64,000 nt of DNA from the NCBI RefSeq assembly GCF_016124105.1, contig NZ_JADGMQ010000009.1, positions 62,001-126,000 of the forward strand. The letters are read 5' to 3'. Numbering within the stretch: position 1 is the first letter of the stretch; every line of letters starts with the position of its first letter. Positions 1 to 18,473 of this stretch are shown here, piece by piece. Source of the stretch: Aquamicrobium zhengzhouense (GTDB taxonomy: Bacteria > Pseudomonadota > Alphaproteobacteria > Rhizobiales > Rhizobiaceae). A program made the translations under genes and the position numbers. The notes below the pieces were generated by a model. The model saw nothing but the letters and a program-made list of their open reading frames with translations. It was not told where the DNA came from and made no database searches.

Positions 1-1871
1 AACCATTGGCCAATATTGTCCAACCAGGCGCCCTGCCCGATTCGCTGCCGCCACAATTCCGCGTCTGCTTGCGTTGCATCACCTTCAACCGGGACACCAC
101 CGTGAGAGGCGACCCAGAAGGTCCGGGCTTCCTCCGACAGTTTGACCTGTGAAAACACTGGCGCCGGAATCGCGTTCACGGAACTGATGAATATGGCGTC
201 CTGATCGCGCAGAGCATCGGGAGAGTTGGTCAAGGTGACCGGGACTGAGCGTCCCGCGCTCAGTGCAACGCGCGCCATGAGATCTGCGGCGACGGAGAGC
301 GTCGCGGCGTCATTCCGCTCTAGATATATCGGCAAAGGCTCGGTCAGCCGCGTATACGGGAAGCCGGTGCCGCCGAGCGCAGCAAGGTTCGGATGCTGGC
401 CGATACGGGCGAAGTCTGGGATCACGAAACGCGAGGAATTGAAGATCGCCAGACGCGGAGTTTCATCCGACAATCCTACCGCAGTACATGCCTCGTCCTC
501 AGCCGTTTGCAGATTTGCCACGATCGTGACTTCGTTGAGGCCCGGTTTGAAATGCCGCATGGTCATGCGCAGAGGCAGCTGCTCGAGGATAGCGCCCCGC
601 TGATCGTTCAGCGGCATTGAGACCGCAATCGAGCCGTTCACATAAACGTTGATCAGGCTCCCCGGCAGGACGTTAGCGGCATAGCCTGCGTCCAGTAGAA
701 TCTGGGCCTCTCCATAGGAGTCCGCATAGAAGTCGGACGGTACTGCGAATTGGAAGCTGGTGCTGAAACTGCGCCCAGAAAAGCTCTCCGAGCGAATCCC
801 CAGCTCCCGGAACGTCAGTTCGCGGCCGCCTAAAACCATAGGCGCGTTCGGAAGGTGCCACGCTTCCGTAATCACCGTGTCGCGCCTTGTTCCGGCAGCT
901 CGGTCTATCGGCGCAAGAACCTCATCGAGCGCGCTGAGCCATTCGGAACGATTGCGTCCGCTCACGACGAATGTAGGCACGCTGGACTGCCCTTCCGCGA
1001 AGGCGGCAACGGGTCCGGTTGAGCTCGAAGGAAGGCGGACGCCCAGCGCTTCAATTTCGTCATGCGTTCCGAAAAACACACGCAAGCTTGCGTCTTCCTG
1101 TTCAGGGGAAGGTGCGGAGTCGATAACAAAGTCGAGATCCGGCAGGGGCAGATGCAGTGCGATTGCCTGAGCCAGCCGAAGAACGTCTGCGCTGATATCG
1201 CTTTGAGACATGCCGGGTGCGACAATCGCGATTGTCGCGCGGCCTGTGCCGTCTGCGGAGATCGTACGCAGATCCTCGACAGTCGTCAGTTTTGCTGCGG
1301 AGGGATCGCTCGAGCTTATGAAGGTCTGTGCTGCGTTGATGGCGCTCCACAATTCATAGGTCGATTCGATTGTGCAGTCGGTTCGATGGCGCTGACGTGC
1401 TCGCAGCGAGATATCGTTGCGTCCAGCGCGCAGAAGACCTGCAGGGATGTCGACCTGTATGTTCGCCACCCCATCTGCGGAGCGGACCGGCGTATCGATC
1501 ACCGCGGAATCATTGATCAGCAACTGGAGGCGTGATGCTTCTGGCGCGACAACGATGGCGTTGCTGTAGGCGAGTTGCAGTCGCATGGGCGCTTCGGCTT
1601 GCGCCTTGGTCAGGTTCAGTGCCCAGCCTTTGGAGGCGGTCTCACCCCGCAGCATCACATCTCCTGCAGGCAGGAGCCTGCGACGGAATTCGGCTTGTTG
1701 CGGCTGATCTGGAGATGCCAACGGTGATGGTTGCAGCTCGCGCGGTGCTGCGGGCTTTTCTCCCTCTGACTGAAGCGGACGCTCCGGAGACATGTCGAAA
1801 GGTGTGGGCTGGGCATGAAGCGAAGTCGTCGACGCCAGCGCAAGAAACAATGAAAGCGTATATCGGTTCAT
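1..1871 (-). CDS. bcsB: BcsB, periplasmic subunit of cellulose synthase (3' end outside window)
   Basis: The frame is open from the ATG at 1871 down to base 1, so the gene is cut by the window edge. About 623 codons are visible; the family is usually 700-850 residues. A short signal peptide (MNRYTLSLFLALASTTSLHA) is followed by a proline-rich linker and then carbohydrate-binding/flavodoxin-like repeats. The segment around residue 175 with 'RHRTDCTIES' is typical of BcsB. BcsB sits at the inner membrane with BcsA and guides the glucan into the periplasm. Its ATG overlaps the bcsA stop by four bases (ATGA), so the two are translationally coupled. I recognise the family from motifs and from the neighbour bcsA. 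Confidence 0.9.
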   Translation of the reverse strand, partial: MNRYTLSLFLALASTTSLHAQPTPFDMSPERPLQSEGEKPAAPRELQPSPLASPDQPQQAEFRRRLLPAGDVMLRGETASKGWALNLTKAQAEAPMRLQLAYSNAIVVAPEASRLQLLINDSAVIDTPVRSADGVANIQVDIPAGLLRAGRNDISLRARQRHRTDCTIESTYELWSAINAAQTFISSSDPSAAKLTTVEDLRTISADGTGRATIAIVAPGMSQSDISADVLRLAQAIALHLPLPDLDFVIDSAPSPEQEDASLRVFFGTHDEIEALGVRLPSSSTGPVAAFAEGQSSVPTFVVSGRNRSEWLSALDEVLAPIDRAAGTRRDTVITEAWHLPNAPMVLGGRELTFRELGIRSESFSGRSFSTSFQFAVPSDFYADSYGEAQILLDAGYAANVLPGSLINVYVNGSIAVSMPLNDQRGAILEQLPLRMTMRHFKPGLNEVTIVANLQTAEDEACTAVGLSDETPRLAIFNSSRFVIPDFARIGQHPNLAALGGTGFPYTRLTEPLPIYLERNDAATLSVAADLMARVALSAGRSVPVTLTNSPDALRDQDAIFISSVNAIPAPVFSQVKLSEEARTFWVASHGGVPVEGDATQADAELWRQRIGQGAWLDNIGQW

Positions 1872-6351: not shown

Positions 6352-8856
6352 ATGTCGTCCATGCGTTCACCCAGGTCCACTCCGTTGGAAATCGTCTCGC
6401 GGAATGACACGCACTTGCCGAGGGGCGAGGCGTCGCAAGGCCATGCAGACGACCAGCCTCCCGCATGGGACAACCATTTTTACATCGCGCCGAACGTGCG
6501 GTTCACGCGCACGCCCGATCGGATGCTGAGGAAAACCACCGACGAAGTTAAGCCCGAGCCCGCGCCTCAGGCGAGCCTTGTCACGTCAGGTGCAGCGCCA
6601 AACATCCCCGCCCGGACCATGATTCCGGTGGCTCCAGTTCAGGACGTACCAATCGAGCCACTGGTTGAAGCGGCCGCGCCTGAAGGGGTTTCGCATGTCG
6701 TTGCGGTCGCAAATGAAGATGCTGCTCCTTTAGTCCCGCTTCGGCAGGTCGCGTCGACGGTAGTGACACCCGCCCCGCCCGCTACTCCGGCAAACCCGAC
6801 ACGCGTCTATCCGCAGGATCAGCCAGTTGTGCAGGCCGCGGAACCCGCAGCGCCCGCGGCGGTAGAAGAGGTTAAGCCGAGCGCAACCGAGCCGGTCAAT
6901 ATCGTCCCTTCCGATAATCAGCTGTCTTATCTCTCTGATTTCGCATTCTTTGAGCTCGGAGCGCCTACGCTGGTCGTTCCTGAAGCCGAGCCAGATGCGA
7001 TCGCGGCCGAGGACGTTTGTAAGCCGGTTGAGGTTGTCGCGGAAAAGCCTGCGCACGTAGCTCAGGTGGTGCCAATGCAGCCCGTTGACATCGCATCTCT
7101 TTATCGGGTGATCGAATGTGCTGTTGCAGAGCGGTCATTTGCGGAAGCAACCGAGCCGCAAACGGAAAGTTCTTCCGTTTCGCAGACCGAGCCTGAGGTT
7201 GAAGTAGCGGCAGCACGTCACGAAGCGGCTTCCTCCTCCACTCCGAAGCAGCCACAGACGCTATCCTCCGTAGTCACGCCGCTACGTGCGCCCTCGCTTC
7301 CCCTGGCAGGCGCGGTGTCTGCTGCAAATTTCGGTGGCGACTATGAGTTCCCGACACCGGAATTCTTGCAATTGCCGCCGGAAGGTCAGGGTTTCTATAT
7401 GTCGCAGGAGAGGCTGGAACAAAATGCCGACCTCCTGGAAACCGTCCTGCAGGATTTCGGCGTTCGTGGTGAAATCATCAACGTCAATCCGGGACCGGTG
7501 GTCACGCTCTATGAGTTCGAGCCAGCGCCGGGTGTAAAATCAAGCCGAGTCATCGGCCTCACTGAAGACATTGCGCGGTCAATGTCAGCCATCTCCGCAC
7601 GTGTTGCGGTCATTCCTGGCCGGAACGTCATCGGTATCGAGCTGCCCAACGAAAGCCGCGAGACCGTATATTTCCGCGAGCTCATCGAGAGTGAAGGGTA
7701 CAAGGACAGCAGCTACAAGTTGGCGCTGTGCCTTGGAAAGACCATTGGCGGTGAGCCGGTGATCGCCGAGCTCGCGAAAATGCCCCACCTGCTTGTTGCC
7801 GGCACGACTGGGTCCGGCAAATCGGTCGCGATCAATACGATGATCTTGTCGCTGCTCTACCGCCTCAAGCCGGAAGAGTGCCGCCTGATCATGGTTGATC
7901 CGAAGATGCTTGAATTGTCCGTTTATGACGGCATCCCGCATCTCCTCACGCCGGTCGTCACCGATCCGAAGAAGGCCGTGACCGCGCTGAAGTGGGCGGT
8001 GCGTGAGATGGAAGACCGCTATCGCAAGATGGCGCGGCTCGGTGTTCGGAATATTGACGGCTTCAACCAGCGTGCGGCAATCGCGCGCGACAAGGGCGAA
8101 GTTGTCACCATGCAGGTTCAGACTGGCTTCGAAAAGGGAACCGGCGAGCCGCTTTATGAGGATCAGGAAATCGATCTGACGCCAATGCCGTATATCGTCG
8201 TCATCGTCGACGAGATGGCAGACCTGATGATGGTCGCTGGTAAGGAGATCGAGGGAGCGATTCAGCGTCTGGCTCAGATGGCGCGTGCTGCTGGTATCCA
8301 TCTCATCATGGCTACACAGCGTCCTTCGGTTGATGTGATCACCGGCACCATCAAGGCGAATTTCCCGACGCGCATTTCGTTCCAGGTAACGTCGAAAATC
8401 GATAGCCGAACGATATTGGGTGAGCAGGGTGCCGAACAGCTGCTTGGCCAGGGAGACATGCTGCACACAGCTGGCGGGGGGAGGATCTCCCGCGTGCACG
8501 GACCTTTTGTTTCAGACGAGGAAGTCGAGCGTGTCGTTGCACATCTGAAGCTGCAGGGCCGCCCGGAATATCTCGACACCGTTACCGCGGATGAAGAGGA
8601 TGAGGTCGAAGAGGTCGACGACGCGCCGGTGTTCGACAAGAGCGCGCTGGCTTCAGAGGACAATCCCGATGCGATGTTCGAAGAGGCGGTGAAGATCGTT
8701 CTTCGCGACAAGAAGTGCTCGACCTCGTACATCCAGCGCCGCCTGGGGATTGGATATAATCGTGCCGCCTCTCTTGTGGAGCGCATGGAACAAGAGGGCC
8801 TTGTCGGTGCGCCCAACCATGTCGGGAAGCGCGAGATCCTCGGTGGTCGAGCCTAG
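6352..8856 (+). CDS. ftsK: FtsK/SpoIIIE-family DNA translocase lacking the N-terminal membrane domain
   Basis: An ATP-driven double-stranded DNA pump of about 834 residues. The first 320 residues are a low-complexity Pro/Ala/Val/Glu linker with no membrane segments. Then come the alpha domain, the motor with Walker A GTTGSGKS at about 484 and Walker B '[10 protein letters not shown]' near 620, and a C-terminal gamma winged helix (about 773-834) that would read polar KOPS-type sites. Canonical FtsK anchors to the septum through four membrane helices; these are absent, so this is the soluble type that several rhizobia carry as a second copy. The start could be TTG 6346, ATG 6352 or ATG 6361. 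It is transcribed alone and ends at a strong terminator. Confidence 0.92.
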
Positions 8857-8880
8857 CTTTCCTCATTGAAGGTTTCGACG

Positions 8881-8914
8881 AAAACGGCGGGGGTGACCCG
8901 CCGTTTTCTGTTTT
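8881..8914 (+). terminator. Intrinsic terminator of ftsK
   Basis: A near-perfect stem AAAACGGCGGG / CCCGCCGTTTT with a five-base loop (GGTGA) is followed by CTGTTTT. It should stop ftsK transcription, which matters for reading the second terminator at 9146. Confidence 0.9.
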
Positions 8915-9072
8915 ATGACAGGTTCGTGTCCCCAGCCTGTGGACAAGGTCGCCACCGAGCCCTTCAACACGAGTATCCTCTGCCCGTCATTTGAGCACAT
9001 TGGCGAGGCGGAATGTGCATCTGCGCAACTTTGTGCGTGGTTTAGAAGTAGAGCGCCAAATCCGCCGCGAAA

Positions 9073-9090
9073 ATTGCGTCCCCGCGCAAT
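9073..9090 (+). promoter_or_regulatory. Hexaloop stem-loop 1 in the amiC leader
   Basis: A perfect 6-bp stem ATTGCG / CGCAAT closes the six-base loop TCCCCG. It is a candidate first arm of an ANTAR-type RNA target and lies 73 bases before the terminator. Confidence 0.45.
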
Positions 9091-9145
9091 AGTCCTTCCA
9101 AAGATCGGAACTCAGCGCTAGACTGCCTTCAAATATTGGCATCCG

Positions 9146-9191
9146 AGCCCCGTTTCGACCGCGTCTTCGCGCGGTTCGGTGCGGGGCTTTT
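9146..9191 (+). terminator. Intrinsic terminator in the amiC leader
   Basis: The outer stem AGCCCCG / CGGGGCT (9146-9152 with 9182-9188) encloses an inner stem ACCGCG / CGCGGT with six-base loop TCTTCG (9158-9175); intervening bases pair partly. TTTT follows. It stands about 17 bases before the amiC ATG, with no other gene between it and the ftsK terminator. A conditional (attenuation) role is the natural reading. Confidence 0.75.
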
Positions 9192-9207
9192 CACGTTGGG
9201 CTTCCGC

Positions 9208-10281
9208 ATGAAGCGAGTGGTAGACATTGGGGTACTTCTTTCGCGCAGCGGCATGTACACTGCGCTGGCGTGCGCGAGCCGTGCGGGCGTGCTGCGTGGT
9301 GTCGAAGAAGTAAACGTTGATCCCAATCTCGATGTCGCCTTTCGGGTAATCGAGCGCGACCCCGAAGGGCGCGCGGATCGCTACGCGCCGTTGTGCCGCG
9401 AGATATTAAAGGGTTCCAACGCAAGACACATTTTCGGATGCACCACTTCGGCGAGCCGCAAGGAGGTCATACCGGAGCTGGAGCGTTTCGACGGTGTTCT
9501 CTGGTACGCGGTTCCCTATGAAGGCTTCGAGGCTTCGGAGCGGGTTGCGTACATGCATTCATGCCCAAACCAGCACCTCCTCCCGCTTTTGGATTGGGCG
9601 CTGCCCAACCTGGGCAATCGTTCCTATCTTGTCGGCTCCAATTATATCTGGGGCTGGGAGCTGGCGCAGATTGCTCGCGAGCGCGTCTCGGCTGCGGGAG
9701 GGCAGGTCCTAGGTGATCGCTATCTCGCGATCGGCGATACTGAGCCGGATCATATCATCCAGGACATCCAGGCTTTGAAGCCGGATTTCATCCTCAATTC
9801 ACTTGTCGGGGAAAGCTCCTACGCATTCATGGCCAAACTGGCTCAAGCTGCGCAAAATTTGTCGTTCAGCCGACCTACCGTAATCTCCTGCAATTTCACG
9901 GAGTGCGAAATTGAGGCGGCTGGAGAAGCTGCGGAAGGGCTCGTGTCGGCCGGTCCATGGTTCGAGCCGGAAGGCGCACGTGGCGGATCGTTCTACGAAA
10001 TGGCTCGCCAGTCCGTGCATGAGCTTGCACGATTGCTGCATGGGCGTCCCGGCGCAGAAGGGTTGCCTTTGTCGGATTTGCTTCGCAGCGCGACTGAGGC
10101 GGGCAAAAGCCCTCGTCTCGATCCGACGCATCTTCATGCGCGCCAGCCCGCGATCATCGCACGCCTTGAAGGCGGAAGGTTCCGGGAGATAAAGCGCCTG
10201 GTCACCATGCGCGCAGATCCCTACCTGACCAGCCGCTCGCGCCCCACGCAAGCAGGCGCCATCCTGAAGGTGGTGTCATGA
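9208..10281 (+). CDS. amiC: AmiC-like amide-sensing periplasmic-binding-fold regulator
   Basis: The 357-residue protein has the type I periplasmic-binding fold of AmiC and the urea/short-chain-amide binding proteins: 'VDIGVLLSRSG' at the N-terminus, 'FGCTTSASRKEVIPELE' near 85, and 'NLGNRSYLVGSNYIWGWE' near 140. From this start it has no signal peptide, which fits a cytoplasmic sensor rather than a transporter subunit. In Pseudomonas, AmiC holds AmiR inactive until an amide binds. The ATG at 9208 gives the natural N-terminus; an upstream TTG at 9136 would run through the leader terminator and is rejected. The stop overlaps the amiR start (ATGA). Confidence 0.8.
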   Translation: MKRVVDIGVLLSRSGMYTALACASRAGVLRGVEEVNVDPNLDVAFRVIERDPEGRADRYAPLCREILKGSNARHIFGCTTSASRKEVIPELERFDGVLWYAVPYEGFEASERVAYMHSCPNQHLLPLLDWALPNLGNRSYLVGSNYIWGWELAQIARERVSAAGGQVLGDRYLAIGDTEPDHIIQDIQALKPDFILNSLVGESSYAFMAKLAQAAQNLSFSRPTVISCNFTECEIEAAGEAAEGLVSAGPWFEPEGARGGSFYEMARQSVHELARLLHGRPGAEGLPLSDLLRSATEAGKSPRLDPTHLHARQPAIIARLEGGRFREIKRLVTMRADPYLTSRSRPTQAGAILKVVS

Positions 10282-10889
10282 GTCGCATCAGGACGGAAAA
10301 TCTTGGCGGCGCGATCGCCTGGATCCTGCACCGCCCGCACCCTTCGGTACAAGGTCTCGTCCGGCAGCTCGGTGTGATCGGTCTGGAGGTCCGTGAGGCG
10401 TGGCCCGAATTGCCCGCTGAGGCGATCGGTGCCGACTTCATCTTCTATGATGCGGATATGGGACATGACGAGCAGTTCCCGTGGCCGCGGGGGCAGTCGC
10501 CGATGCCAATGATTGCGCTTATCGGGTCAGAAGCGCCGGGTCGTCTGAAATGGGCGATGGATGTAGGCGCGCATGCGCAGCTTCTCAAGCCGGTCAGCGA
10601 CAAGGGCGTCTATGCCGCGCTGCTCGTCGCACGCAGCAATTTCGACCGGGCGAATGCTTCGGAGGCGATGATCGCCGATCTGCAGAACCGCCTCTCCGCG
10701 AGGCAGACAATTGTGCAGGCGGTGATGATCTTCGTCATGAAGGGGATGACCGAAGCCGAGGCCTATGACCAGCTTCGCCAGGCCGCAATGGCCTGGCGCG
10801 TAACGATTGAGACCGCCGCCGAACGGCTGGTCGCGAACCATTCTAATGAGAGGGGCAAAGACGATGGCAGACGCGTCGATCTCGCCTGA
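10278..10889 (+). CDS. amiR: AmiR-like ANTAR-domain RNA-binding antiterminator
   Basis: A 203-residue protein with an N-terminal pseudo-receiver domain (about 10-125), a coiled-coil linker around 130-150 ('MIADLQNRLSARQTIVQAVM'), and a C-terminal ANTAR three-helix domain (about 145-195; 'MKGMTEAEAYDQLRQAAM'). ANTAR proteins bind hairpins in nascent RNA and allow read-through of terminators. The close coupling to amiC is as in the Pseudomonas ami operon. The likely target is the leader with the terminator at 9146-9191. The 3' end overlaps the next permease gene by 26 bases, so regulator and transporter are one transcription unit. Confidence 0.85.
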   Translation: MSRIRTENLGGAIAWILHRPHPSVQGLVRQLGVIGLEVREAWPELPAEAIGADFIFYDADMGHDEQFPWPRGQSPMPMIALIGSEAPGRLKWAMDVGAHAQLLKPVSDKGVYAALLVARSNFDRANASEAMIADLQNRLSARQTIVQAVMIFVMKGMTEAEAYDQLRQAAMAWRVTIETAAERLVANHSNERGKDDGRRVDLA

Positions 10890-11763
10890 ACCCTTGGTAG
10901 TGCATGAAAACGGGCCTTCCGTCCTGCGTAGGCTGCTGAAGCGCAAGCTCGCGCTGATCGGATTGGCGATCATTGTTATCTGTGTTGGCGGCGCCGTTTT
11001 CGCTAAATGGCTGGCGCCACATGACCCGTATGAACAATTCTTCGACGGGCTGACCATCGAGGGAGCGCCTCTGCCCCCTAACGAAATGTTCTGGTTCGGC
11101 ACAGATCTTCTGGGCCGAGATCTCTTCTCGCGAATCCTTTACGGCGCCCAGACCTCGTTGATCATCGGCCTGGTGGCCAACGGGGCGGCCTTGTTCATCG
11201 GAACACTTGTTGGAGTGACGGCGGGCTACTTCCGCGGTGTCATCGGTGGCGTGCTCATGCGCTTCACCGACCTGATGATGGCATTTCCTGCCCTTCTCCT
11301 GGCGATCTGCCTTGCAGCGATCTTTTCACCGTCGCTCTGGATTGTTGCGATGGTGATCGCCTTCGTTAACTGGGTCCAGACCGCGCGCGTTATCTTCACC
11401 CAGACCTCTTCCCTCGCAGAGCGCGATTACATCGCTGCCGAGAAGACCCTCGGGGCTGGTCATGGCCGGATCCTGTTCAAGCACATTTTGCCCCACCTTA
11501 TTCCGACTTTGATCGTGTGGGGCACTCTCGGTATTTCTACCACCGTTCTGCTGGAGGCCACCTTGTCGTTCCTCGGCATTGGCGTTCAGCCGCCGATCCC
11601 TTCGTGGGGCAACATAATTTTCGAGAACCAGACTTATTTCCAGTCTGCGCCATGGCTCGTCTTTATTCCGGGGGCGGCGATCCTTTTGTTAGCCCTTGCC
11701 TTTAACCTCGTCGGCGATGCGCTGCGCGATATTCTCGACCCGACACAGCAGGGGCGTGACTGA
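10864..11763 (+). CDS. Family-5 ABC importer permease (DppC type)
   Basis: This is an inner-membrane permease of about 299 residues with an N-terminal cytoplasmic part, one membrane helix near 25-45 and five more after about 95. The cytoplasmic coupling loop 'AAEKTLGAGHGRILFKHILP' near 195 is the EAA motif of the DppC/OppC family. The ATG at 10864 follows GAGGGG at ten bases and is preferred over the in-frame ATGs upstream that lie inside amiR. It overlaps the next permease gene by one base (TGATG). The substrate is not readable from the sequence; the operon context (AmiC, formamidase) suggests an amide-containing compound. Confidence 0.9.
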   Translation: MADASISPEPLVVHENGPSVLRRLLKRKLALIGLAIIVICVGGAVFAKWLAPHDPYEQFFDGLTIEGAPLPPNEMFWFGTDLLGRDLFSRILYGAQTSLIIGLVANGAALFIGTLVGVTAGYFRGVIGGVLMRFTDLMMAFPALLLAICLAAIFSPSLWIVAMVIAFVNWVQTARVIFTQTSSLAERDYIAAEKTLGAGHGRILFKHILPHLIPTLIVWGTLGISTTVLLEATLSFLGIGVQPPIPSWGNIIFENQTYFQSAPWLVFIPGAAILLLALAFNLVGDALRDILDPTQQGRD

Positions 11764-12683
11764 TGGCTGCCTATATCCTGCGACGCCTCATTCAGTCCAC
11801 ACTGATCCTGCTCGGCGTTTCGTTCATTACTTTCGTTCTGCTCTACGTTCTCCCCGCCGATCCTGTGCGGCAGATTGCAGGGCGTTCAGCCACTGCGGCG
11901 ACTGTCGAGAGCATTCGTCAGCAATTGGGCCTCGATCAGCCGTTTCTGGTCCAGTATGGCAACTATCTGCTGAATCTGTTCCAGGGCGACTTTGGCCGCT
12001 CTTACCTGCAAAAGACGGAAGTCGCAGAGCTGATCGTTTCGCGGCTCCCAGCGACGCTGATGCTGCTTGTTGCTGCAATCGGGTGCGAACTCCTGATCGG
12101 CTTGCCACTTGGCATTATCGCAGCCCTCAATCGCGGTAAGGCTATCGACAACGGTCTGATGCTGACGAGCTTCCTGACGGTGTCAGCACCGCAGTTCGTC
12201 GTGGCTCTGCTGCTTCTCTTCGTCTTTGCGGTCAAGCTGGGCTGGTTCCCGATCGGCGGCTACGGAACGTTCGCCCACATTGTCCTGCCGGCGCTAACGC
12301 TCGGTATTCTTGGGTCCGGCTGGTATTCGCGGATCATGCGATCCTCGATGGTTGATGTGTTGCGCGCGGACTTCATACGTACCGCAAGAGCCAAGGGGCT
12401 GAACCGCACCAAGGTGATCCTTGGCCACGCCCTCCCCAACGCGATTTTGCCGATCATCGCGATGATTGGGATCGATATCGGTCTGTTCATGTCAGGAATT
12501 GTGGTGGTTGAAAGCGTCTTTGGCTGGCCAGGGATCGGTCAGCTCGCCTGGCAGGCCATCCAGCGCGTCGACATCCCGATCATCATGGGCGTGACGCTTG
12601 TCTCGGCCTGCGGGATCGTGATCGGCAATCTCATCGCCGACCTGATTTCGCCGCTCATCGATCCGCGCATCAAGCTGCGCTGA
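11763..12683 (+). CDS. Family-5 ABC importer permease (DppB type)
   Basis: A 306-residue permease with the N-terminal 'RRLIQSTLILLGVSFITF' helix typical of DppB/OppB, five further membrane segments, and the EAA loop 'RTARAKGLNRTKVILGHALP' near 205. It pairs with the DppC-type protein just upstream. The order permease C before B is inverted compared with the classical dpp operon. It ends 27 bases before the binding-protein gene, which has its own good ribosome site (GAGGAG). Confidence 0.92.
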   Translation: MAAYILRRLIQSTLILLGVSFITFVLLYVLPADPVRQIAGRSATAATVESIRQQLGLDQPFLVQYGNYLLNLFQGDFGRSYLQKTEVAELIVSRLPATLMLLVAAIGCELLIGLPLGIIAALNRGKAIDNGLMLTSFLTVSAPQFVVALLLLFVFAVKLGWFPIGGYGTFAHIVLPALTLGILGSGWYSRIMRSSMVDVLRADFIRTARAKGLNRTKVILGHALPNAILPIIAMIGIDIGLFMSGIVVVESVFGWPGIGQLAWQAIQRVDIPIIMGVTLVSACGIVIGNLIADLISPLIDPRIKLR

Positions 12684-12710
12684 ACCATTTAATCCAGAGG
12701 AGTAACACAC

Positions 12711-14327
12711 ATGAAGAAGCTTATCCTTTCCACGGCGCTGGCAAGCCTATTGGCGCTGCCTGCCTTTGCACCGGCACAGGCCGAAGAGCCACAGTACGGC
12801 GGCAACATGATCGTCACCTATAAGGACGACGTTGCCACGCTGGATCCGGCTATCGGCTATGACTGGCAGAATTGGTCGATGATCAAGTCGGTATTCGACG
12901 GCTTGATGGATTATGAGCCGGGGACCACGACCCTGCGCCCGGGCCTCGCCGAGAGCTATGAGATCTCGGACGACGGCCTCACCTATACCTTCAAGCTGCG
13001 GCCGGGCGTCAAGTTCCACAATGGCCGCGAGCTGGTCGCTGATGACGTGGTCTACTCCATTAACCGCGTGGTCAATCCGGCTACCCAATCTCCAGGTCAG
13101 GGCTTCTTCGCCATGATCGATGGTTACAATGAAGCAGCCTCGGGTAGCGCAGACACGGTTTCGGGCGTCACCGCACCTGATGCCAGCACAGTCGTCTTCA
13201 AGCTGGCCCGTCCGGACGCGACCTTCCTTCACGTCATGGCGCTGAACTTCTCGTTCATCGTCCCGAAGGAAGCGGTTGAGGAAGCTGGCGCTGACTTCGG
13301 CAAGAAGCCGGTCGGGACAGGCGCGTTCAAGCTGACCGAGTGGACCCTCGGACAGCGTCTCGTGTTCGAAAAGAACCAGGACTATTGGATCTCTGGCGTT
13401 CCCTACCTCGACAGCTTCACGGTTGAAGTTGGTCAGGAGCCGGTCGTAGCGCTTCTGCGTGCGCAAAATGGCGAAGTCGACATTCCGGGTGACGGCATTC
13501 CGCCGGCGAAGTTCGTTGAAGTGATGAAGGACGAGGCTCAGGCAAGCCTTGTGGTTGAGGGCGGGCAGCTCCACACCGGTTACATCACCATGAATGTGCA
13601 GCAGGCACCGTTCGACAAGGTTGAGGTGCGTCAGGCCGTCAATATGGCGATCAACAAGGACCGCATCATTCAGGTCATCAACGGCCGTGCAGTTCCTGCC
13701 ACCCAGCCGCTGCCGCCATCAATGCCGGGCTACACCGAAGGCTACGAGGGCTACAAGTACGATCCGGAAGCAGCCAAGAAGCTGCTTGCCGACGCAGGCT
13801 ATGCGGACGGCTTCGAGACCGAAATGTTCGTCATGAACACCGACCCGAACCCGCGTATCGCGCAGGCGATCCAGCAGGATCTGAAGGCAATCGGCATCAA
13901 CGCGTCGATCAAGTCGCTGGCGCAGGCGAACGTGATTGAGGCTGGTGGCGCAGGAACGGCTCCGATGATCTGGTCCGGCGGGATGGCATGGATTGCTGAC
14001 TTCCCGGACCCGGCAAACTTCTACGGTCCGATCCTCGGCTGCGGTGGCGCGGTTGAAGGCGGCTGGAACTGGTCGAAGTACTGCAATGAAGAGCTCGACA
14101 TGCTCGCGGCGCTGGCAGATTCGATCGTTGATCCGGCCAAGGAAGGCGAGCGTCTGGCCAAGTGGTCGGAAATCTACATGAAGGTGATGGAAGACGCCCC
14201 ATGGGCGCCGGTGTTCAACGAGCAGCGCTACACGCTGAAGTCGGCCCGCATGGGCGGCGCAGACGAGCTCTTCGTTGATCCGGTCTCGATCCCCGTCAAC
14301 TACGACTACGTCTTCATCAAGGAGTAG
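12711..14327 (+). CDS. Family-5 extracellular solute-binding protein
   Basis: A 538-residue periplasmic protein of the SBP_bac_5 family. It has a clear Sec signal peptide ending in AQAEE near residue 25, then 'YGGNMIVTYKDDVATLDPA', the usual opening of dipeptide/oligopeptide/nickel binding proteins, and 'TYTFKLRPGVKFHNG' near 90, the family signature. It hands the ligand to the DppBC-type permeases encoded upstream. Codon use is strongly biased to C- and G-ending codons, as expected for an abundant protein. The ligand is unknown; the neighbouring formamidase and AmiC suggest an amide. It is followed after eight bases by the formamidase gene. Confidence 0.93.
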   Translation: MKKLILSTALASLLALPAFAPAQAEEPQYGGNMIVTYKDDVATLDPAIGYDWQNWSMIKSVFDGLMDYEPGTTTLRPGLAESYEISDDGLTYTFKLRPGVKFHNGRELVADDVVYSINRVVNPATQSPGQGFFAMIDGYNEAASGSADTVSGVTAPDASTVVFKLARPDATFLHVMALNFSFIVPKEAVEEAGADFGKKPVGTGAFKLTEWTLGQRLVFEKNQDYWISGVPYLDSFTVEVGQEPVVALLRAQNGEVDIPGDGIPPAKFVEVMKDEAQASLVVEGGQLHTGYITMNVQQAPFDKVEVRQAVNMAINKDRIIQVINGRAVPATQPLPPSMPGYTEGYEGYKYDPEAAKKLLADAGYADGFETEMFVMNTDPNPRIAQAIQQDLKAIGINASIKSLAQANVIEAGGAGTAPMIWSGGMAWIADFPDPANFYGPILGCGGAVEGGWNWSKYCNEELDMLAALADSIVDPAKEGERLAKWSEIYMKVMEDAPWAPVFNEQRYTLKSARMGGADELFVDPVSIPVNYDYVFIKE

Positions 14328-14335
14328 GGCACATC

Positions 14336-15291
14336 ATGTGCAAGCACTGTAACCATACGATCCACGCTCATCAGCACCATTTCGGCTGGGACAATTCTAT
14401 TGCTCCGGCTCTGACGGTAGCTCCGGGCGAGACGATCCTGTTCCAGTGCCTTGACAGTTCTGGGGGCCAGCTTGGCCCCCAGTCCACCGTCGAGGATGTG
14501 AAGGCGCTGGATTTTGGCAAGATCAACCCCGTTTCCGGTCCGATCTACGTCGACGGTGCAAAGCCGGGCGACGTACTCAAAGTGACGATCGAGAGTTTCA
14601 CGCCGCAGCTGCGCGACGGCACTGGGTTTGGCTGGACCGCTAATATTCCGGGTTTCGGGCTTCTGGCAGATCAGTTTACTGAGCCGGCTCTCAATGTCTG
14701 GAAGTTCGATGCCACCAGCATGGAACCAGCATTGTTCGGCAAGAATGGCCGCGTGCCGTTGAAGCCGTTTGCCGGAACGATCGGCAACGCTCTTGCGGAA
14801 AGCGGCCTCCATTCCGTCGTTCCGCCGCGCCGTGTAGGTGGCAATCTTGACATCCGTGATCTGTCATCCGGTACGACTCTCTACCTTCCGGTCGAGGTCG
14901 AGGGCGCTTTGTTCTCGGTTGGTGACACGCACGCTGCCCAGGGCGATGGCGAGGTCTGCGGCACCGCTATCGAAAGCCCGTTCGATGTCGTTCTGACGCT
15001 TGACCTGATCAAGGACCAACCGCTGAGGACGCCGCGCTTCACGACGCCGGGGCCAGTCACGCGCCACCTCGACGCTAAGGGCTACGAGGTCACGACCGGT
15101 ATCGGTCCCGACCTGTGGGCCGCGGCGAAGGATGCGGTTGCGAACATGATCGATCTGCTCTGCGCAACGCAGAAGCTGGATCCGGTCGATGCCTACATGC
15201 TTGTCTCGACGTGCGGCGATCTACGCATCTCCGAGATCGTGGACATGCCGAATGTGGTGGTCAGCTTCTACTTCCCGAGGGCCGTCTTCGA

Positions 15292-15295
<4 letters not shown>
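14336..15295 (+). CDS. Acetamidase/formamidase family amidohydrolase
   Basis: This 319-residue cytoplasmic enzyme belongs to the FmdA/AmdA family, which hydrolyses formamide or acetamide to ammonia and the acid. Seen in the sequence: 'HHFGWDNSIAPALTVAPGE' near the N-terminus, 'VSGPIYVDGAKPGDVLKV' near 65, the 'VGDTHAAQGDGEVCGTAIE' metal-site stretch near 200 with His, Asp and Glu, and 'VSTCGDLRISEIVDMPN' near the C-terminus. It has an unusual Cys/His-rich first 14 residues (CKHCNHTIHAHQHH) that could bind metal. It sits inside the transporter operon and overlaps the ATPase gene by four bases (ATGA), so hydrolysis of the imported ligand is its probable role. Confidence 0.9.
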
Positions 15296-17064
<1,769 letters not shown>

Positions 17065-17841
17065 TCATTCGCGTCGCAGGGTAATCCAGGCAGGGGCGTG
17101 ATCGCTCGCCCCTTCCCTACCGCGGACCTCGTGATCGACTCCTCCGCTCTCCAGCCGATCGCGCAGGTTCGCGCTCAGGAGAAAGTGGTCCAGGCGCATG
17201 CCGGCGTCCCGCTGCCAGCGAAGCCGCTTATAGTCCCAGAAGGTGTAAATCTTCTCGTTTGGATAGAGATGACGCAGCGCATCGGTCCAACAGCGGCCCA
17301 CAAGCTTGCGGAACGCTGCTCGGGCTTCCGGCTGAACCAGGGCGTTATCGTCCAACGACTTCGTCCGATAGATATCGAAATCCGTTGGGACAACGTTGTA
17401 GTCACCCGCGAGAACGACTGGCGCTCCAGTCTTTCGCAAGGCGGTAGCATGCTTTCGAAGCCGATCCAGCCAGGCGAGTTTGTAGGCGAACTTTGGCCCT
17501 GGCTGCGGATTGCCATTCGGCGCGTATATGGACGCGAAGAGAATACCAGCGATCGCAGCCTCTACATATCTGGCCTGCAGGTCTTCAGGATCGCCGGGCA
17601 AGAACGTTCGAGTCAGAACCGGCTCGCCGACGCGAGAGAGGATCGCAACACCATTCCAGCTACGTTGCCCCACCCAGACGGCGTCATATCCGAGCGCCTT
17701 CAGAGCACTCTCGGGAAACGTATCATTCGTGGCCTTCAATTCCTGAAGGCACACAATATCCGGTTCTGTGTCTTTCAACCACGCAATGAGGTTGCCTAGG
17801 CGGCGGTTGATACCGTTGATGTTGAATGTCGCGATCCTCAT
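17065..17841 (-). CDS. xthA: Exodeoxyribonuclease III
   Basis: A 258-residue Mg-dependent 3'-5' exonuclease and AP endonuclease of the ExoIII family for base-excision repair. Motifs in order: 'ATFNINGINRR' with the metal-site Asn at the N-terminus, 'CLQELK' with the metal-binding Glu near 37, 'SIYAPNGNP' near 105, 'GDYNVVPTDFDIY' with the catalytic Asp/Asn near 148, and 'SDHAP' with the catalytic Asp-His near the C-terminus. The length is normal. It is the second gene of a two-gene minus-strand operon; its ATG overlaps the stop of the hydrolase gene by four bases. Its stop abuts the ATPase stop on the other strand. Confidence 0.95.
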   Translation of the reverse strand: MRIATFNINGINRRLGNLIAWLKDTEPDIVCLQELKATNDTFPESALKALGYDAVWVGQRSWNGVAILSRVGEPVLTRTFLPGDPEDLQARYVEAAIAGILFASIYAPNGNPQPGPKFAYKLAWLDRLRKHATALRKTGAPVVLAGDYNVVPTDFDIYRTKSLDDNALVQPEARAAFRKLVGRCWTDALRHLYPNEKIYTFWDYKRLRWQRDAGMRLDHFLLSANLRDRLESGGVDHEVRGREGASDHAPAWITLRRE

Positions 17842-18473
17842 CCTGCGGTGATGCGATTGGCCCAGTCGCGTGTGGTCATAGCCATCGTCTTTAAATGGTC
17901 AGCCACGCTGAAGCCGGAAAATTTCTTTCGCGGCTTGAGATCATGGTCCCCATCCTCCAGCCAGAAGATCTTTATCGCTTCGGAGAGCTGGTACTGATCG
18001 ACCTCCTCATTTGTGCCAAACGGATCTCGTGTGCCCTGAATGACGAGCGTGGGTACTGAAAGATTTTCGAGGTGTGCTGTCCGCAATTGATCGGGCTTTG
18101 CCGGGGGATGAAAAGGATAGCCAAGGCATAGAAGTCCGGCGATTGCGCCCTCCGCGTGCATCTGGTCGGCAAGCATGGAAGCAACCCGCCCACCCATCGA
18201 CTTTCCGCCAATGATTAGGGGAGTTGCGGCTGCTATCCCGGCAACCGCATTGCGATATTCATCGATCAGCTTTTCAGCCTTAGGCGGTGGCTTGCGTCCG
18301 CCCTCGCGACGCGCGGCCATATAGGAGAATTCGAACCGAGCGACCCGGAAGCTCTCTTGTGCAAGTGCGTCTACGATCGCATTCATAGATGTGGAATCCA
18401 TCGGAGCTCCGGCACCATGTGCCAGGAGGATCATTACGTCTGCATCTTCTGGGCCGTCAAAAATGAACTGCAT
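17838..18473 (-). CDS. Alpha/beta-hydrolase fold protein (KANL3/Tex30-like)
   Basis: This 211-residue cytoplasmic protein has the compact alpha/beta-hydrolase layout of the KANL3/Tex30 group: oxyanion segment 'LAHGAGAPMDS' near 20, nucleophile elbow GKSMGGR near 95 (serine as nucleophile), 'LVIQGTRDPFGT' with the acid residue near 155, and 'EDGDHDLKPRK' with the catalytic histidine near 180. The reaction is not known; members are often found beside DNA-repair genes in alphaproteobacteria. It is translationally coupled to xthA downstream. Confidence 0.8.
   Translation of the reverse strand: MQFIFDGPEDADVMILLAHGAGAPMDSTSMNAIVDALAQESFRVARFEFSYMAARREGGRKPPPKAEKLIDEYRNAVAGIAAATPLIIGGKSMGGRVASMLADQMHAEGAIAGLLCLGYPFHPPAKPDQLRTAHLENLSVPTLVIQGTRDPFGTNEEVDQYQLSEAIKIFWLEDGDHDLKPRKKFSGFSVADHLKTMAMTTRDWANRITAG

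Follow-up and report, generated by a model that had tools for sequence, protein, structure and literature searches.

The amiC-amiR operon of Aquamicrobium zhengzhouense raises the question of how transcription gets past a terminator that stands directly before its first gene. The operon lies in the window, by which we mean the whole 64,000-nt stretch analysed (contig NZ_JADGMQ010000009.1, positions 62,001 to 126,000, forward strand), whose own numbering is used throughout. A preliminary description of this DNA had proposed that AmiR, an ANTAR-domain protein, prevents termination in the leader of its own operon by binding a pair of hairpins with six-base TC--CG loops. Comparison of relatives supports the idea of AmiR antitermination of its own operon, but the TC--CG hairpins prove to be the wrong evidence for it, and another, smaller hexaloop hairpin, GGC-AUCCGA-GCC, emerges as the candidate target (Table 1). 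Taken together, the sequence comparisons make AmiR-dependent antitermination, with this single hairpin as a P2-like target, quite probable, and the operon appears to be an amide-uptake operon that AmiR switches through a small RNA hairpin blocking an early stop signal. Published work is cited below by PMC accession.

Relatives were picked by AmiC similarity, and leader sequence was not used as a criterion. An AmiC-based scan of contigs gave 436 relatives, and the top 80 were taken (L002-L081); from a search of 199 family genomes, the 30 best matches supplied further loci (L082-L111). L001 and L082 both correspond to the window itself and were removed; with the window then added, the set came to 110 leaders. 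Their AmiC proteins are 39-100% identical to that of the window (itself included), and near-duplicates are few (105 distinct 68-nt stretches); 28 leaders, the window among them, form a close group and the other 82, with AmiC below 61% identity, a distant group. GGC-N6-GCC stands 64-98 nt upstream of the amiC start in 110/110 leaders, and the copy closest to amiC has A at loop position 1 in all except L086, which has two copies and carries this A in the upstream one. Every leader holds GGC-A-N5-GCC, with 53 different loops in all. Loop letters were tallied after anchoring on this motif, which fixes the arms and the first A, and a listing of patterns made before anchoring lost none of the 110 through absence of either. 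By this tally position 1 is A (110/110), position 2 is T in 55, A in 29, C in 23 and G in 3, position 3 is T in 61, C in 34, A in 12 and G in 3, position 4 is C in 78, T in 22, A in 9 and G in 1, position 5 is G in 79, A in 30 and T in 1 (a purine in 109/110), and position 6 is A in 39, G in 35, C in 27 and T in 9. Fourteen further loops that were chosen have A at position 1 (A1) in 14/14 and G at position 4 (G4) in 2/14. In the full set, no column from -75 to -2 rises above 0.33 bits.

The element at 9138-9149 is a 3-bp hairpin whose 3' arm, GCC, doubles as the base of the terminator's 5' arm, so that the two structures exclude each other. The preliminary description had placed strong terminators both after ftsK and before amiC, and both were recovered. 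The one before amiC is real: its hairpin has a predicted folding energy of -31.0 kcal/mol with TTTT directly after the stem. It is missing from the output of a simple terminator scanner, which does list the one at the end of ftsK, because that scanner requires five T among the eight bases that follow a stem and here there are four. In 108 of the 110 minimum-energy folds (the exceptions being L023 and L108) the hexaloop's GCC forms the paired base of the terminator, and in 100 of these 108 the eight bases that follow the stem include four or more U. The next stem columns vary with pairing retained (CG76/UA12/UG21; CG81/UA14/UG10/GC4; GC90/AU6/GU3/UG2/UA1). RNAalifold, run on 25 close and on 43 diverse sequences, agrees, with changes on both sides in 5/12 and 4/8 pairs respectively, and its outermost pairs connect the loop letters with the U-tract. 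Over the 110 leaders, switching to the small hairpin has a median cost of 7.4 kcal/mol (range 0.3-15.3; the constrained folds retained the hairpin in 101, and the other nine are still counted in this median). Once the small hairpin is formed, the median distance from the stem to the first UUU goes from 0 to 3 nt (109 leaders).

A promoter pattern precedes the element. TTNNNN-16..18-TANNNN with at least 8/12 consensus matches occurs in the 75 nt before it in 57/110 leaders versus 5.8% of shuffles, and with at least 7/12 in 73/110 versus 14%; a stricter promoter scan of 8400-11400 found no promoter. In the window's Rhizobiaceae-like clade (15 leaders), CTTCCAAT and GCTA-ACTG are among the best-conserved letters, and transcription would start at about 9130-9132, judging from the position of the -10 box. 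In that clade 13 nt separate the end of the -10 box from the element wherever the algorithm chose this site, which it did not in L006, L013, L024 and some others; of the 57 sites that score at least 8, 38 end 27-31 nt before it. Across much of the distant group, a hairpin resembling P1, the first of the two hairpins in published ANTAR targets, fills the added space between promoter and element: 57 of the 82 distant leaders have a hairpin with a stem of 4 bp or more and a loop of 4-8 nt that ends 0-5 nt before the element, compared with 16-33 at six shifted positions. These stems vary with pairing kept (CCGGC/GCCGG, CTGAC/GTCAG, TCGGT/ACCGA), and by eye their loops share no letters. The 28 leaders of the window's own clade show no P1-like hairpin above background (9/28; of six shifted positions, five give 4-8 and one gives 20).

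The element is also tied to amiC in position. A covariance model of it (R2, built from 43 leaders, with matches counted at E ≤ 0.01) gave 41 matches in 40 of the 199 family genomes. Each of the 41 is followed on its own strand by an AmiC homologue, whose matched part begins 5-131 nt beyond the end of the element match; 28 of these places were already in the leader set and 13 were new. A regulon of several elements within the A. zhengzhouense genome was rejected, the leader being the only strong match (E 3.8e-15 with R1 and 2.2e-7 with R2; the next 0.049 and 0.38). Nine weaker matches were obtained there, and the six loci inspected by eye resemble ordinary hairpins or coding sequence. Further afield, R2 found matches in 4 of 240 genomes of the class and 10 of 299 of the phylum, and seven of the ten new places lie by an AmiC homologue (L212, L213, L215-L219). 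A phylum sample was drawn by a search of 398 genomes for the AmiR_N family, which gave 30 loci (L126 being the window). Excluding the window, 24 of these have an AmiC match upstream of AmiR, and by eye the element stands before amiC in ten (L125, L127-L132, L135, L136, L141; AmiC 36-50% identical). At three places (G080:C24, G131:C20 and G188:C2, the last being L170) two AmiC-like genes lie side by side and the element precedes the second; these genes are just 28-31% identical to the window's AmiC.

An AmiR match was obtained at all 110 loci, and most residues of the ANTAR face that would meet the RNA are kept, judging from aligned sequence. In EutV numbering, R142 is present in 108/110 (with 2 gaps), Y164 in 97/110 (F in 10), R168 in 106/110, M172 in 103/110 (T in 4) and E160 in 80 (D in 20), and W174 is typical (91 AmiRs). 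The likeness to ANTAR antitermination is well supported, and for AmiR binding, the ligand, the efficiency of termination, read-through and feedback we infer the following course. Transcription of the operon would start from the promoter at 9096-9124, and the nascent leader would open with the GGC-AUCCGA-GCC hairpin. Without inducer, AmiC would hold AmiR, as in Pseudomonas aeruginosa, where AmiC binds amide and releases AmiR; the shared GCC would then pair with the GGC beside the U-tract and the polymerase would halt before amiC. A ligand on AmiC, probably a small amide or related compound, would free AmiR, whose ANTAR domain could grip the hexaloop and keep GCC in the small hairpin. The terminator stem left over would be shorter and about 3 nt away from the U-tract, as in the published model in which formation of P2 shortens the terminator stem and parts it from the U-tract (PMC3369936). 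Read-through into amiC-amiR-oppCB-SBP-fmdA-oppDF (SBP, solute-binding protein) would in turn provide positive feedback.

Several observations weigh against this interpretation. The window's U-tract is short, with four U, and its promoter, TTCCAA-17-TAGACT, is poor (7/12). Within the window alone GGCAN5GCCCCG has one match, and at least one match occurs in 30 of 100 shuffles; since it is no rarer there than chance, the case rests on conservation and not on rarity. The 3-bp stem is invariant and therefore yields no covariation of its own. At its threshold R2 missed two of its own training loci (L107 and L108, in genomes G016 and G153), and three of the ten new class and phylum places are not beside amiC (L214, L220, L221; E 0.0023-0.0099), among them L220, which stands behind an aldolase-like gene (named by eye from its translation) and is regarded as a false positive. 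By eye, the element is absent from 14 of the 24 AmiC-AmiR loci of the phylum sample (L112-L123, L133, L134; AmiC 30-38%), so that it marks one AmiC-AmiR lineage and not such pairs at large. In the protein, K149 occurs in none of the 108 readable AmiRs (V 102, T 5, M 1; 2 gaps), K143 in one and N173 in five. With G4 absent from the loops, K149 lost and K143 and N173 mostly lost, AmiR binding could be weak or of a different kind.

Other explanations of the leader fare worse. That AmiR binds both TC--CG hexaloops, as first proposed, is now scarcely credible. Both hairpins exist (ATTGCG-TCCCCG-CGCAAT and ACCGCG-TCTTCG-CGCGGT), and among the 29 hairpins with a 6-bp stem and a hexaloop on the window's + strand only these two have TCNNCG loops; they are nevertheless unconserved and were rejected as the AmiR target. 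Within 85 nt before the element, a hairpin of this kind occurs in 1/28 close leaders, the window itself, and in 1/82 distant ones (L081, with a different loop), and a TC--CG apical loop occurs in 1/110, again only in the window. Mean column information over 15 leaders is 0.84 bits for hairpin 1; the -35 region reaches 1.73 and the element 1.71, and the stretch further upstream has 0.58. Lying upstream of the predicted -35 box of a conserved promoter, hairpin 1 should be outside the leader RNA. In a fold of 9000-9210, a U-G pair closes both TC--CG loops further into four-base loops, and in a shorter stretch hairpin 1 is absent from the minimum-energy fold and present in the centroid. The preliminary description had named lack of conservation in relatives as what would count against its proposal; this is what was found for both TC--CG hairpins, though not for the switch overall.

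If, instead, GGC-A-N5-GCC were a DNA operator for an unknown transcription factor acting near the start site, with the terminator a constitutive attenuator, its palindromic and invariant arms and its place near the predicted start would be accounted for. The motif is, however, strand-asymmetric, with A at loop position 1 in 110/110 and T at the mirror position in 9/110, it sits on the terminator's 5' arm in nearly every fold, and its distance to the -10 box shifts from 13 to about 29 nt. Moreover, no such factor was seen in the operon, whereas amiR is there. Strand asymmetry and terminator overlap disfavour this explanation, and we consider it improbable. It is more improbable still that the leader RNA itself senses a small molecule, or acts kinetically, without AmiR: a short conserved RNA that overlaps a terminator would suit such a riboswitch-like device, but the operon encodes an ANTAR protein and Rfam offers no match to the leader. 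Within 8600-18000 the only Rfam match up to E 5 was RF02880 at 14444-14575, far below its cut-off, and ten relatives searched at the gathering threshold gave two tRNAs and no leader family. To our knowledge, one 3-bp hairpin is too small for any known type of aptamer, which also counts against a riboswitch.

If AmiR does bind this hexaloop, its recognition differs from the published ANTAR code. Published ANTAR targets consist of two hexaloop hairpins, P1 and P2, with A1 and G4 (PMC3369931, PMC8164766). The leaders studied here share A1 and a hairpin whose 3' arm overlaps the terminator's 5' arm, and keep a purine at position 5; G4 is absent, and there is no clear P1 in the window's clade. The element accordingly falls outside the published class on G4 and, in that clade, on the dual hairpin. 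The preliminary description's remark that the target departs from the A1/G4 pattern is supported, although in a different hexaloop, where A1 is kept and G4 is not. In EutV, K149, R142 and E160 hydrogen-bond the flipped G4, Y164 stacks on it, and A1 has no specific contact (PMC8934654). NasR K347R binds about tenfold more weakly (PMC7496416), and K347 would be the equivalent of EutV K149 when the proteins are aligned by spacing. In the 30 best-scoring ANTAR proteins of the order, which are taken to be NasT-type, the equivalent lysine was present in 27/27 of those recognised, by a recognition pattern that is shaped like the canonical motif. A strict A1/G4 pattern found no canonical leader at these 30 loci, so they cannot serve to check the G4 rule internally.

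K149 and G4 are lost together in the main set (V, T or M at residue 149 in 108/108 readable AmiRs, G4 in 1/110), although not strictly. K149V was rejected as the sole cause of G4 loss, since L141 combines V149 with a G4 loop (AATGAA). The K149 change may indeed be unrelated to the loops, arising by drift or through coupling to AmiC, with EutV-type contacts retained at relaxed specificity. L141 favours this, as do L213, which has a G4 loop and whose residue 149 was not determined, and six V149 AmiRs (L116-L120, L133) with no such element before amiC; three K149 proteins with AmiC in the locus (L112, L114, L115) have none either. Set against the coincidence in the main set and the lysine in the order's best ANTARs, we take this to be possible and lean mildly against it. 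Close to an even chance, in our estimate, is the broader proposal that a large AmiR lineage of alphaproteobacteria makes do with a minimal antiterminator: one 3-bp hairpin with the loop A1-N-N-(C/U/A)-R5-N near the transcript's 5' end, read by a changed surface without K149 and usually with W174. ANTAR proteins would then have at least two codes, and the dual hexaloop would be dispensable. In L107-L111, A146 in the ANTAR domain (with T149 in four and E147 in four) accompanies loops that are all U4-G5, which hints at co-variation of protein and RNA; when loop letters were tabulated against ANTAR residues, with relatedness not accounted for, nothing emerged beyond these five.

Much of the system resembles that of P. 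aeruginosa AmiC-AmiR/amiE, including an AmiC-like sensor, an AmiR with pseudo-receiver and ANTAR domains, an intrinsic terminator in the leader and an amide theme. Unlike the amiE leader, the leader here stands directly before amiC-amiR and an Opp-type importer, and it has, in the window's clade, one hexaloop hairpin with a loop that lacks G4; AmiR has V149, where P. aeruginosa AmiR has K. The Enterococcus faecalis EutV targets (PMC3369931, PMC8934654) likewise have A1 hexaloops and a second hairpin whose 3' arm overlaps the terminator. In them, however, P1 and P2 both carry A1 and G4, whereas here only the P2-like hairpin is constant, and P1, not clear in the window's clade, has elsewhere variable loops of 4-8 nt. 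For Klebsiella NasR, which belongs with the nasF leader, SELEX gave a consensus of a terminal C:G pair and A1, both of which are found here too; NasR prefers two A1/G4 hairpins, and its K347 matters for binding (PMC7496416), where the residue here, as aligned above, is V. Alphaproteobacterial NasT-NasS leaders (PMC5424462, PMC6759348) share an ANTAR protein, a separate sensor and transcription-stopping leader hairpins within the same class of bacteria, with a different sensor and different target genes; the presumed NasT-type ANTARs retain the K149 equivalent and the AmiRs here do not. Among the matches listed in a search of open-access literature, no title or abstract start dealt with an alphaproteobacterial amiC leader or with G4-less ANTAR targets. 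A lineage that lacks G4 and in part P1 could escape genome searches built on the dual-hexaloop A1/G4 definition. Its roughly one hundred natural leader/protein pairs offer material for studying loop choice by ANTAR domains, and a natural single-hexaloop leader would put to the test the proposal, made in 2022, that the minimal target of an ANTAR protein is a single hexaloop.

Table 1 Features of the amiC leader and operon, in window positions.
Feature	Position	Strand	Basis or remark
Intrinsic terminator at the end of ftsK; insulates the leader	8880..8908	+	Terminator scanner
Hairpin 1 of the preliminary description, TCCCCG loop; not part of the switch	9073..9090	+	Unconserved; upstream of predicted promoter
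Predicted -35 box, TTCCAA	9096..9101	+	Conserved in close clade; 17-nt spacer; pair scores 7/12
Predicted -10 box, TAGACT	9119..9124	+	Conserved in close clade
Hexaloop hairpin GGC-AUCCGA-GCC; P2-like antiterminator, candidate AmiR target	9138..9149	+	Conserved in 110/110 leaders
Leader terminator hairpin; shares its first three bases (9147-9149) with the hexaloop hairpin, as the latter's 3' arm	9147..9187	+	Folding
Hairpin 2 of the preliminary description, TCTTCG loop; apical part of the terminator	9158..9175	+	Loop unconserved
U-tract of the leader terminator, short (four U)	9188..9191	+	Sequence, folding
amiC, amide-sensor-like, periplasmic-binding-protein fold	9208..10281	+	ATG 9208, Pfam, PDB match
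amiR, AmiR_N pseudo-receiver and ANTAR domain	10278..10889	+	Pfam, PDB match
OppC-like permease	10864..11763	+	Open reading frame (ORF), Pfam
OppB-like permease	11763..12683	+	ORF, Pfam
SBP_bac_5 extracellular solute-binding protein	12711..14327	+	ORF, Pfam
FmdA/AmdA acetamidase/formamidase family enzyme	14336..15295	+	ORF, Pfam
Double ABC ATPase, OppD-OppF like	15292..17064	+	ORF, Pfam; start set by eye within a longer ORF

By these gene assignments, amiC encodes an AmiC-like sensor and the adjoining amiR a protein with both a pseudo-receiver and an ANTAR domain. The Pfam families PF13433/PF13458, PF21332 and PF03861 were all above cut-off for the pair, AmiC matched 1pea/1qo0 in the PDB (6e-31) and AmiR matched 1qo0_D (1.7e-11); the whole genome has a single ANTAR match at E ≤ 0.001. 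The gene order after amiR is conserved: among L002-L081, 75 loci have over 5.5 kb of sequence downstream, and of these all 75 keep OppB, SBP, FmdA and ABC and 73 keep OppC. The amiC start at ATG 9208 agrees with relatives. The longest amiC ORF begins at TTG 9136 and runs in frame through the terminator (9136-9207), a likely source of wrong start annotation.

Some further features were seen around the promoter. A dyad-like conserved block at 9022-9037 (TGCACAATTNTTGCGC type; TGCGCAACTTTGTGCG in the window) lies well upstream of the -35 box and, in most of L002-L015 (Rhizobiaceae-like clade), about 100-117 nt before the element; it is a possible activator site, and nitrogen control would be a guess. 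A CG-N-AATT block at 9085-9092 (CGCAATAG), which close relatives conserve immediately before the -35 box and which overlaps the 3' arm of hairpin 1, is possibly an UP-like element. A sigma-54 promoter, suggested by GGCA, was rejected, as by eye there is no GC 10 bp after GG, where the consensus has it. Finally, two records of the leader set, L019 (titled Bacillus subtilis SK6B4) and L010 (an Arenimonas metagenome-assembled genome), hold an amiC operon with AmiC 71% and 81% identical to that of the window, and their leaders resemble alphaproteobacterial ones; these records look mislabelled or contaminated.

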